A DNA stretch of 64,000 nucleotides, from NCBI RefSeq assembly GCF_029201545.1, contig NZ_CP104007.1:1212501-1276500 (forward strand). The letters run 5' to 3'. Positions 20,705 through 52,831 of the stretch are shown one piece after another. The DNA comes from Devosia sp. FJ2-5-3 (GTDB lineage Bacteria > Pseudomonadota > Alphaproteobacteria > Rhizobiales > Devosiaceae). Numbering within the stretch: position 1 is the first letter of the stretch; every line of letters starts with the position of its first letter. The notes under the pieces are model-generated. The model saw nothing but the letters and a program-made list of their open reading frames with translations, was not told the DNA's origin and searched no databases. The position numbers and the translations under genes were made by a program.

Positions 20705-20792
20705 CGCCGGACCTTCTCCATGTAACTTGGTGGAGCAGCTCCGACATCATCATGGAGAACCCATGACCAGAGGGGCCCGGCGCTGCCCCTCT
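20705..20792 (-). promoter_or_regulatory. Structured 5' leader of terC
   Basis: In the mRNA sense a 7-bp hairpin AGAGGGG/CCCCTCT (20792-20769) is followed by TTCTCCATG (20759-20751) pairing perfectly with CATGGAGAA (20722-20714). A short inner stem GGAG/CTCC sits near 20732-20742. The 3' arm GGAGAA is part of the likely ribosome-binding site of terC, so pairing would hide it. TerC/Alx genes often have metal- or pH-responsive leaders; this one does not match the yybP-ykoY core that I know. Confidence 0.5.
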
Positions 20793-50985: not shown

Positions 50986-52059
50986 TTATGCGACGGCCTG
51001 GGTGGTGGCGGCGCGGCGCTTGGAGACGGAATCGGCAAGAGCCTCGAGAGCGGTGACGGTGGTGTCCCAATCGATACAGCCGTCGGTGATCGACTGGCCG
51101 TAGACCAGCTCCTGGCCGGGGATAAGGTCCTGGCGACCGGCGACGATATTGGATTCGACCATCACGCCGATGATGCGCTTGTCGCCGGCGGCGAGCTGGT
51201 TGCCGATCTCGGCGAGAACCTGGGGCTGGTTTTCAGGCTTCTTGGAGGAGTTGGCGTGGCTGGCGTCGATCATGATCGCAGGGGTCAGGCCCGCCTTGAG
51301 GGCGGCATTGGCCGTGTCCTCGACGCTCTGGGCATCGTAATTGGTGGTCTTTCCGCCGCGCAGGATGATGTGGCAGTCCTCATTGCCGGTGGTCGAGGCG
51401 ATGGCCGAGCGACCGTCCTTGGTGACGGCGAGGAAATGATGCGGCTGGGAGGCGGAGAGCACGGCGTCGAGCGCGATCTTGACGTTGCCGTCGGTGCCGT
51501 TCTTGAAGCCGACCGGGCAGGAAAGGCCGGAGGACAGCTCGCGGTGGATCTGGCTTTCCGTGGTGCGCGCGCCGATGGCAGCCCAGGAGACGAGATCGGC
51601 AATGTATTGCGGCGTCGTCATGTCGAGGAATTCGCAGGCGGCCGGCAGGCCGAGATTGGCGATGTCGAGCAGGAGCGCGCGCGCGGTGTGCAGGCCCTGG
51701 TCGATATTGAAGCTGCCATTGAGATCGGGGTCGTTGATGAGACCCTTCCAGCCGACCGTGGTCCGCGGCTTTTCGAAGTAGACGCGCATGATGATCTCAA
51801 GCCGGTCGCCCAGGCGTTCGCGCAACGGGGCGAGGCGGCGCGCGTAGTCCATGGCGGCGGCGGGATCGTGGATGGAGCAGGGACCAACAATAACGGCCAG
51901 GCGATCATCCTGGCCGGTCAAGATATTATGGAAATCATGGCGCGCGGCGAGCACCGTGCGGGTCGCCGCATCGGTGCGCGGATGCTGGCGCATGACCTCG
52001 ATCGGCGTGGTCAGGGTCTTGATTTCGGTGATGCGGAGATCGTCGGTGGATTTGAGCAT
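50986..52059 (-). CDS. aroG: 3-deoxy-7-phosphoheptulonate synthase, class I (AroF/G/H type)
   Basis: 357 residues. Class I signatures: RLAVIVGPCSIHDPAAAMDYARRL, VYFEKPRTTVGWKGLINDP, DMTTPQYIADLVSWAAIGARTTESQ, LSCPVGFKNGTDG, IILRGGKTTNYDAQ and MIDASHANSSKKPENQ. It joins PEP and erythrose-4-phosphate, the entry to aromatic amino acid synthesis. Ends VSKRRAATTQAVA. Preceded by a leader peptide and a terminator (next entries). It interrupts the uvrC-pgsA order usual in Rhizobiales. Confidence 0.96.
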   Translation of the reverse strand: MLKSTDDLRITEIKTLTTPIEVMRQHPRTDAATRTVLAARHDFHNILTGQDDRLAVIVGPCSIHDPAAAMDYARRLAPLRERLGDRLEIIMRVYFEKPRTTVGWKGLINDPDLNGSFNIDQGLHTARALLLDIANLGLPAACEFLDMTTPQYIADLVSWAAIGARTTESQIHRELSSGLSCPVGFKNGTDGNVKIALDAVLSASQPHHFLAVTKDGRSAIASTTGNEDCHIILRGGKTTNYDAQSVEDTANAALKAGLTPAIMIDASHANSSKKPENQPQVLAEIGNQLAAGDKRIIGVMVESNIVAGRQDLIPGQELVYGQSITDGCIDWDTTVTALEALADSVSKRRAATTQAVA

Positions 52060-52085
52060 TTTCGTTGGCTTCCTGGGTTATTCAG

Positions 52086-52126
52086 GAGGCGGCCAAGAAA
52101 AAAGCCGCCTCGAAAGTCGGGCGGCT
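52086..52126 (-). terminator. Attenuator: competing hairpins upstream of aroG
   Basis: In the mRNA sense AGCCGCC (52126-52120) pairs with GGCGGCT (52109-52103) and is followed by six T residues (52103-52098): a full terminator. The same GGCGGC arm can instead pair with GCCGCCTC (52093-52086) in an 8-bp stem. Upstream, GGCGG...GCT inside the leader frame can pair with the first arm. These mutually exclusive folds are the layout of transcription attenuation. Confidence 0.8.
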
Positions 52127-52158
52127 GGCTTGCGATTTGGGTCTAATCTTTGTCGGGA

Positions 52159-52233
52159 TCAGGACGCGCGCGCATTAGCCTCCGCCGGGAGCGGATAGCT
52201 AAAGTACCAATAAAAGGTGGCTGCGTTGATCAT
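52159..52233 (-). CDS. Aromatic-rich leader peptide of aroG
   Basis: A 24-codon frame beginning MINAAT and continuing FYWYFSY, then PLPAEANARAS and stop, 33 bases before the terminator's first arm. Six of seven codons at positions 7-13 specify Phe, Tyr or Trp. A ribosome stalling there when any charged aromatic tRNA is scarce would favour read-through into aroG. The peptide itself need have no function. No strong ribosome site is visible before the ATG. Confidence 0.82.
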   Translation of the reverse strand: MINAATFYWYFSYPLPAEANARAS

Positions 52234-52295
52234 GGCAGGGAAGCTAGCGCCGAGTCTCCGGCTTGTCGAGTCCCGACTTTCGTAGGGGGCGTCGA

Positions 52296-52327: not shown

Positions 52328-52831
52328 CTAGAGGTCGACCTTGGCCGTGTCGCCCATTTCGGGCTTGGCGCCGGTGGCGGCCGCAAACAGCATCTTTGCC
52401 CCTGCGATCAGCTTGTTGGGGCTATCCCAGACTTCGCCATCTTCCGGGGTGACCTTGAGAAGGCGGATCTGGGGATCATTGGCATCGTCCCACCAGGCCT
52501 TGTCGAAGGCGCTCCACAATTGCTCGATCTTTGCGCGGTCATTGGAAACGATGGCATCGCCGGCAATAACGGCATAGCGATGTGCGCCATTATCGGCCCA
52601 GGCCAGCGAGACATGAGGGTAGCGCTCGATTTCCTGGAGCTTGTGGCCCTCGAGGTCGGTGAGAAAATAGATGGCATTCTCTTCGCGGCGGACGCGCGCC
52701 GACATGGGGCGGCTGCGCTGCTGTTCGCCATCCCAGGTGGTGAACATGCAGATGTCGATCTTTTCAGCCAGCTCCCAAACACGGTCGGCAGCTTCGTCGG
52801 GGGGAAGAATGTTGTTGTTTTCTTGGGTCAT
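52328..52831 (-). CDS. Pyridoxamine 5'-phosphate oxidase-fold protein (general stress protein 26-like)
   Basis: 167 residues with the split-barrel flavin-binding fold: VWELAEKIDICMFTTWDGEQ, RSRPMSARVRREENAIYFLTDLEGHKLQEIER and HVSLAWADNGAHRYAVIAGDA. It matches the stress-protein branch more than the vitamin B6 enzyme. The flavin or F420 cofactor and substrate are unknown. Between uvrC and aroG. Confidence 0.87.
   Translation of the reverse strand: MTQENNNILPPDEAADRVWELAEKIDICMFTTWDGEQQRSRPMSARVRREENAIYFLTDLEGHKLQEIERYPHVSLAWADNGAHRYAVIAGDAIVSNDRAKIEQLWSAFDKAWWDDANDPQIRLLKVTPEDGEVWDSPNKLIAGAKMLFAAATGAKPEMGDTAKVDL

Follow-up and report, generated by a model that had tools for sequence, protein, structure and literature searches.

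The aroG gene of Devosia sp. FJ2-5-3 is very probably controlled by a ribosome-mediated transcription attenuator of the trp type. On the minus strand of the window (the whole 64-kb stretch of DNA that was analysed), the gene is preceded by a short reading frame in which codons for Phe, Tyr and Trp are clustered, and then by an intrinsic terminator. This element is conserved in related genomes, its base pairs covary, and both its position and its specificity for class I aroG are retained. The proposal of the initial annotation, that a leader with mixed aromatic codons attenuates this class I DAHP synthase gene, is strongly supported by frame counts, by covariation and by the covariance model R1. 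The parts of the locus are the following.

52264..52269, minus strand: predicted -35 element TCGACA, 36 to 31 nt 5' of the leader ATG (GACA conservation and sequence reading)
52241..52246, minus strand: predicted -10 element TAGCTT, 7 nt 5' of the leader ATG (judged by eye from the sequence)
52233-52159, minus strand: leader peptide frame, 24 codons plus TGA, MINAATFYWYFSYPLPAEANARAS (translation from ATG to TGA)
52190..52201, minus strand: arm 1, TAGCTATCCGCT, within the leader frame, partner of arm 2 (fold)
52176..52186, minus strand: arm 2, GGCGGAGGCTA, end of the leader frame, partner of arm 1 or arm 3 (60-locus alignment)
52120..52130, minus strand: arm 3, AGCC AG CCGCC, antiterminator partner of arm 2 (60-locus alignment, covariation)
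52126-52120, minus strand: first arm of the terminator, part of arm 3 (60-locus alignment, covariation)
52103..52111, minus strand: arm 4, GAGGCGGCT, with the second arm of the terminator at 52109-52103 and the partner of arm 5 at 52111-52104 (alignment, covariation)
52126-52098, minus strand: terminator, AGCCGCC-(10 nt)-GGCGGCT plus six T (sequence reading)
52098..52103, minus strand: T-run of the terminator, its first T paired in the stem (sequence; the covariance model match ends at 52098)
52086..52093, minus strand: arm 5, GCCGCCTC, which competes for arm 4 from downstream of the T-run (enrichment and covariation in the alphaproteobacterial set, not in the betaproteobacterial set)
52111-52104 with 52093-52086, minus strand: 8-bp competitor stem, GAGGCGGC / GCCGCCTC (sequence reading)
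52069..52074, minus strand: Shine-Dalgarno-like AGGAAG of aroG (read directly)
50986..52059, minus strand: aroG, encoding a class I DAHP synthase of 357 aa (523.9 bits with TIGR00034, whose cut-off is 173.2)

Both the 24-codon frame with its Phe-Tyr-Trp-Tyr-Phe-Ser-Tyr run and the 7-bp terminator with six T between leader and aroG, first noted on reading the sequence, are indeed present at these positions. The terminator is omitted by a simple hairpin scan, presumably because that scan is limited to loops of 3-8 and the terminator loop has 10 nt. Directly 5' of the leader, and on the same strand, lies a pyridoxamine-oxidase-like gene (52328-52831, minus), whose sole NCBIfam match is below the curated cut-off. 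Scanned with Rfam at gathering score, the 64-kb window yields a single match, a terC RNA (RF03067, 51.4 bits) at 20732-20788 (minus).

In the mechanism that we infer, with its promoter, leader translation, stalling and response to each amino acid, RNA polymerase would start at or beside the leader ATG and a ribosome would follow it through the leader frame. When charged Phe, Tyr and Trp tRNAs are plentiful, the ribosome would reach the stop codon and cover arm 2; arms 3 and 4 would then form the terminator, and transcription would end near 52098. When an aromatic tRNA is scarce, the ribosome would stall in FYWYFSY and cover arm 1, and arm 2 would be free to pair with arm 3 while arm 4 has yet to be transcribed. 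With this 2:3 pairing formed there would be no terminator, and aroG would be transcribed. In the alphaproteobacterial read-through RNA, the freed arm 4 could in addition pair with arm 5.

The occurrence of the leader was assessed at 131 class I aroG loci, made up of 38 loci from 61 relative genomes, 80 on named contigs, namely the best 80 among 592 stretches, and 13 loci found in 385 genomes of the class; nine genomes with weak matches only (E 1.7e-6 to 6.3e-4) were not counted as carrying class I aroG. Among the best 80 of 592 stretches, the closest named locus is that of Devosia sp. Root685, whose AroG is 89.9% identical. In the alignment of the regions upstream of aroG, which had been suggested as a check, the aromatic codons are conserved, with an aromatic run in the leader at all 38 of the nearest loci, and compensatory changes are found in the arms of the terminator and of the 2:3 pairing. 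A frame of 10-32 codons that begins with ATG 140-280 nt 5' of aroG and has at least four aromatic residues in eight is present at 109 of the 131 loci (which include the best 80 of 592), compared to 5 of 1310 dinucleotide shuffles; requiring at least five in eight leaves 98 of the same 131 loci and a single shuffle of 1310. These counts argue strongly against the view that a constitutive upstream terminator is accompanied by a chance aromatic frame, with no regulation, as do the compensatory changes linking arms 2 and 3; we find that view hardly credible. With a looser filter of three in eight, 109 of the 131 loci pass; one of them (L109) was set aside for want of such a terminator, so that leader and terminator together are found by the frame filter at 108 of the 131 loci (again including the best 80 of 592). 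Three further loci (L064, L070 and L123) were added by the covariance model, which brings the element to 111 of 131, with the best 80 of 592 included. The element is absent at 18 of the 131, including the Pantoea, Serratia, Citrobacter, Methylotenera and Thauera loci that were examined; at L095 there is a 14-bit model trace only, and two loci (L107 and L121) were not judged, as the contig ends there.

The composition of the leaders is mixed. All three of Phe, Trp and Tyr occur in 86 of the 108 leaders, Phe and Tyr in 21, and Phe and Trp in 1; for the 60 non-redundant leaders the corresponding numbers are 41, 18 and 1. Examples are the peptides MITVATSYFWYFSYDSSLAAGGSRSI (Bradyrhizobium), MNANRSFYFWYYGFPMPLAEEGVRSP (Xanthomonas) and MSAKFYFYFFWYLRPLADREG (Burkholderia). 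The tail of the peptide varies between clades, yet it encodes a GGCGG-like stretch that lies 8-17 nt past the last aromatic codon in 49 of 60 leaders, by a strict pattern that missed 6. Where codons differ at aromatic positions, the residue was kept versus lost 11/0 times among leaders of 23 codons, 78/10 at 24, 116/117 at 25 and 10/13 at 26, in ungapped comparisons of equal-length pairs in which the longer groups mix registers. The 191-nt leader of the window folds with z = -3.2, which is equalled by 1 of 200 shuffles. Some individual loci deserve mention. In Candidatus Burkholderia humilis (L064) the element scores 72 bits and the short frame no longer matches the usual peptide in register, which suggests that the leader frame may be broken in this symbiont. 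At L123 (67 bits) we see by eye only one Phe-Tyr pair in the leader frame, and sensing may be reduced or lost there. A cobalamin riboswitch (118.9 bits) lies near another aroG locus (L124, 2633-2839).

Pairing was analysed in an alignment (A2) of 60 non-redundant loci, 48 of the 108 leader segments being omitted as near duplicates. By record names and kinship the loci were divided into an alphaproteobacterial set of 36, a Xanthomonadales set of 6 and a betaproteobacterial set of 18, the last including one metagenome-assembled genome placed only as Proteobacteria (L046). In the terminator (3:4), 93.7% of cells are paired, five of nine pairs have changed on both sides, and a T-run follows. The antiterminator, which the initial annotation overlooked, is the upstream pairing of arm 2, at the end of the leader, with arm 3; in the window, GGCGG-A-GGCT pairs with AGCC-AG-CCGCC. 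Across the 60 loci this 2:3 pairing is formed in 83.9% of cells, with 18 cells in four of the eight pairs changed on both sides; its covariation score is equalled by none of 500 shuffles, and sliding the partner by 1-3 columns reduces the pairing to 17-53%. The 2:3 duplex outdoes that of shuffled leaders at rank 0.05 for 28 of 60 loci. Of five measures of 2:3, two are unexceptional, with 58 and 125 of 500 shuffles as good. When leaders were exchanged between loci, the energy of 2:3 was as low in only 1 of 300 swaps for the betaproteobacterial set, in 51 of 300 for the alphaproteobacterial set and in all 300 for the six Xanthomonadales loci.

The hairpin of arms 1 and 2 does form in the window, where the leader stretch folds with -16.2 kcal/mol; compared to shuffled leaders this fold has no extra stability, with 1 of 60 loci at rank 0.05. 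At equilibrium the full-length RNA of the window always keeps 3:4, and the switch must therefore be kinetic. Measured against what defines a trp-type attenuator, the locus has codons for the end products in a short leader frame and an intrinsic terminator between leader and aroG; that the antiterminator is exclusive with the terminator and freed by a stalled ribosome is supported by covariation and simulation, and by the energy swap for the betaproteobacterial set only.

Stalling was simulated by folding the RNA up to just before arm 4, with the RNA masked through 11 nt past the A-site codon. For the window, the simulated probability of the antiterminator is 0.96 with the ribosome stalled at F7, 0.94 at Y8 and at W9, 0.98 at Y10 and at F11, and 0.73 at Y13; it is 0.0 with the ribosome at the stop codon and 0.63 without a ribosome. 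The E. coli trpL leader, simulated as a control, gave 0.99 at W10 and W11 and 0.0 at the stop codon. Averaged over the 60 loci, Phe codons (n = 173) reach 0.94, Tyr codons (n = 142) 0.91 and Trp codons (n = 47) 0.85, against 0.0 for the stop codon; the Phe, Tyr and Trp means are 0.94, 0.93 and 0.86 with a mask of 8 nt, and 0.91, 0.86 and 0.83 with one of 14 nt. When the part of the leader after the aromatic codons was shuffled, the mean probability was still 0.56. A simulated probability of 0.8 is reached for Phe, Tyr and Trp alike at 28 of 60 loci. The distance to arm 2 is 14 nt for F11, 17 nt for Y10 and 20 nt for W9; in E. coli trpL the distances of F11 and Y10 recur, with 14 and 17 nt separating its two Trp codons from CGGGC. 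Based on the simulated stalls and these distances, we consider it plausible that Phe, Tyr and Trp are all read, with Phe and Tyr the best placed.

The leader might instead sense mainly Phe and Tyr, with the Trp codon adding little, a reading to which we give rather less than half of our credence. It would fit the placement of F11 and Y10 at the trpL distances while W9 lies further away, the presence of a codon 11-20 nt from arm 2 for Phe at all 60 loci, for Tyr at 52 and for Trp at 19, and the 21 of 108 leaders that have no Trp codon; the AroR leader of Corynebacterium is reported to be affected by Phe limitation and not by Tyr availability (PMC11802643). Against this, Trp is found in 87 of the 108 leaders, and a stall at W9 gives 0.94 in the simulation, with the mean of 0.85 over the 47 Trp codons pointing in the same direction.

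The covariance model R1 shows how closely the element is tied to aroG. At E 0.01 it finds matches in 44 of the 61 relatives, including the loci that were used to build it. Strong matches (E <=4.1e-11) occur in 38 of the 61 genomes, exactly those with class I aroG, and lie 32-92 nt upstream of the gene; a genome of the same genus in which class I aroG is absent (G035) has no R1 match. Among 28 weaker matches in the relatives (E 2.8e-4 to 0.01), 8 were fetched and none of these has an aroG-like leader. At L173 a terminator-like R1 match precedes a gene pair that we read as serC-serA, with a short frame rich in Gly, His, Ser and Tyr and no aromatic run. In 398 proteobacterial genomes, R1 gives 53 matches at 1e-5 or better, of which 48 are in class I aroG context (47 of 52 loci, plus the locus of G058); 42 of those 47 aroG leaders contain all three aromatic residues and 5 contain Phe and Tyr. 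The other five matches comprise two before pheS, two before a gene for chorismate mutase/prephenate dehydratase, and one (L242) that is a terminator without an aromatic leader. The leaders before pheS and pheA (L237, L238, L240 and L243) are rich in Phe (e.g. MKLFPFFFAFFFTFP before pheA) and look like the known pheM and pheL leaders; the aroG model thus recovers, in addition, attenuators whose type is known.

All aromatic amino acids are made by way of DAHP synthase, their entry enzyme. The AroG protein of the window passes the class I model TIGR00034 by a wide margin and just misses the AroG-specific model NF006723 (546.3 vs 568). The genome (4,192,992 bases, one contig) encodes one class I DAHP synthase and, in addition, one of class II (L039), and the earlier suggestion of one enzyme tuned to the whole aromatic pool is for this reason too strong. 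The class II gene has no R1 match at E 0.1 and, on reading upstream, no aromatic leader, so that the attenuator would govern one of two entry enzymes; reading upstream of trpE (L182) in the same genome likewise revealed no aromatic or Trp-rich leader. In Corynebacterium glutamicum, AroR is reported likewise to govern one of two DAHP synthases (PMC4046766).

As to the start of the leader mRNA, the tetranucleotide GACA is found 33-36 nt 5' of the leader ATG at 30 of 36 non-redundant alphaproteobacterial loci, and by eye many of these have a -10-like stretch about 7 nt 5' of the ATG. A Shine-Dalgarno sequence of at least 4 precedes the leader ATG at none of the 36 alphaproteobacterial loci, none of the 6 Xanthomonadales loci and 1 of 18 in the betaproteobacterial set, whereas aroG itself has one at 30 of the 36 alphaproteobacterial loci. 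Based on the GACA spacing and the missing Shine-Dalgarno sequence, the leader mRNA of Alphaproteobacteria is predicted to be leaderless; as no GACA box keeps a constant distance from the leader ATG in the betaproteobacterial set, we do not extend the prediction to it. The trpL leader mRNA of Sinorhizobium is reported to be leaderless (PMC7298713), and this likeness raises the question of whether the aroG leader, as terminated RNA or as peptide, has an additional action in trans, like rnTrpL and peTrpL in that genus. The predicted leaderless organisation would agree with such a role, as would a weak 25-bit match to RcsR1, an RNA reported to occupy the position of rnTrpL (PMC7143759). This match, however, is far below the 60 bits required and comparable scores occur elsewhere in the genome, and we regard an additional action in trans as quite improbable. 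For the same reasons (25.1 vs 60 bits, similar scores elsewhere) we rejected the window leader as a member of the RcsR1/rnTrpL family; RcsR1 (RF02552) is its best sub-threshold match. At gathering score, Rfam 15 finds nothing over the leader, either in the window or in ten aroG loci of other clades.

Downstream of the terminator, GGCCGCCTC could pair with GAGGCGGC of the terminator's second arm, and the resulting 8-bp stem had been put forward as a competitor of the terminator and as an unusual detail. The stem is present, and it is conserved and co-varying in Alphaproteobacteria, but we rejected it as an antiterminator: arm 5 is transcribed after the T-run, and 4:5 therefore cannot prevent termination. 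Nor is it a peculiarity of the window. Pairing between arm 4 and the 20 nt that follow the T-run surpasses 95% of shuffles at 26 of 36 alphaproteobacterial and 3 of 6 Xanthomonadales loci, compared to none of 18 in the betaproteobacterial set, and exchanging tails between alphaproteobacterial loci never gave a mean 4:5 energy as low (0 of 300). With arm 4 free, the mean probability of pairing with the downstream stretch is 0.74 at 30 alphaproteobacterial loci and 0.38 at 16 betaproteobacterial ones; for the inspection of arm 5, 42 of 57 listed stretches were aligned. The 4:5 stem may serve to cap arm 4 once the message has been read through, or may control the stability or translation of that message.

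A more specific proposal would make 4:5 a second, translational switch, in which arm 5 helps to hide the ribosome site of aroG when 3:4 is formed, and arm 4 takes arm 5 and opens the site when 2:3 is formed. The enrichment and covariation of 4:5 in Alphaproteobacteria are consistent with this, as is the ribosome site of the window, which is paired with a probability of 0.98 when 3:4 is formed. That pairing, though, drops only to 0.85 in the other state. The site is more paired by >0.3 with 3:4 formed at 5 of the 30 alphaproteobacterial loci with a recognisable site; four of these five belong to the genus of the window (L005, L011, L021 and L023, the fifth being L132), one locus (L044) goes the opposite way, and pairing between arm 5 and the ribosome site is weak, with 6 of 36 loci at rank 0.05. 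We consider a translational switch unlikely, and as a general ribosome-site switch it was rejected: 30 of 36 alphaproteobacterial loci have a recognisable site, of which five fit and one is opposite.

The kind of element described here is already known, as trp-type attenuation with AroR as its nearest precedent; no Rfam 15 family was found for the proteobacterial aroG leaders. E. coli trpL works by the same mechanism, and its stall codons lie at the distances of F11 and Y10; it differs in reading one amino acid and in its target gene. The pheL and pheM attenuators of E. coli also follow the trp-type mechanism, with one amino acid each and other target genes, and the ilvGMEDA leader of E. coli is a single leader with codons for several end products of a branched pathway, there the branched-chain amino acids and before another gene. 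AroR of C. glutamicum was reportedly described by Neshat (2014). This leader of aroF is reported to contain Phe-Tyr-Phe codons and to attenuate in response to Phe, not Tyr (PMC11802643, PMC4046766). Compared by these descriptions, AroR resembles the aroG leader in having aromatic leader codons before one of two DAHP synthases and in being attenuated, and differs in being actinobacterial, in having no Trp codon mentioned in its run and in showing no effect of Tyr limitation. The rnTrpL and RcsR1 leaders of Sinorhizobium are reported to combine a leaderless leader frame with an attenuator in Alphaproteobacteria (PMC7298713, PMC7143759), RcsR1 being at the same position as rnTrpL (PMC7143759); they differ from the aroG leader in having Trp codons only and in preceding trpE(G). 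The uORFC-13-1 motif of Acholeplasma aroF, which is predicted only and has 24 representatives, consists of a short frame with one or more Phe codons and a terminator (PMC8632094); by description it too precedes a DAHP synthase, though in another phylum and with a ribosome site. RNA candidates before aroF and aroH of Shewanella are described in PMC2659441, and neither aroG nor aroF nor DAHP is mentioned in the main text of a survey on premature terminators from 2010 (PMC2965389). Searches of open-licence papers gave no other description of a proteobacterial aroG leader.

We tentatively suggest, as a possibility less likely than not, an unnamed family of aroG attenuators across Alpha-, Beta- and some Gammaproteobacteria that would act at the committed step of aromatic synthesis and read the three amino acids that share this pathway. 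Its alphaproteobacterial members would be leaderless and five-arm devices, in which antitermination yields 2:3 together with 4:5, and 4:5 would control the fate or translation of the aroG message. The expression of DAHP synthase in E. coli is described in terms of the repressors TyrR and TrpR (PMC5343134). One RNA element precedes class I aroG in 48 of 398 sampled proteobacterial genomes, and in many proteobacteria the control of DAHP synthase, which TyrR and TrpR exert in E. coli, may therefore fall to an RNA switch in which as many as three signals are pooled. The aroG attenuator would be a compact natural sensor of aromatic shortage, and its conserved extra arm raises the question of what role is played by an RNA stem that can form only after escape from termination.
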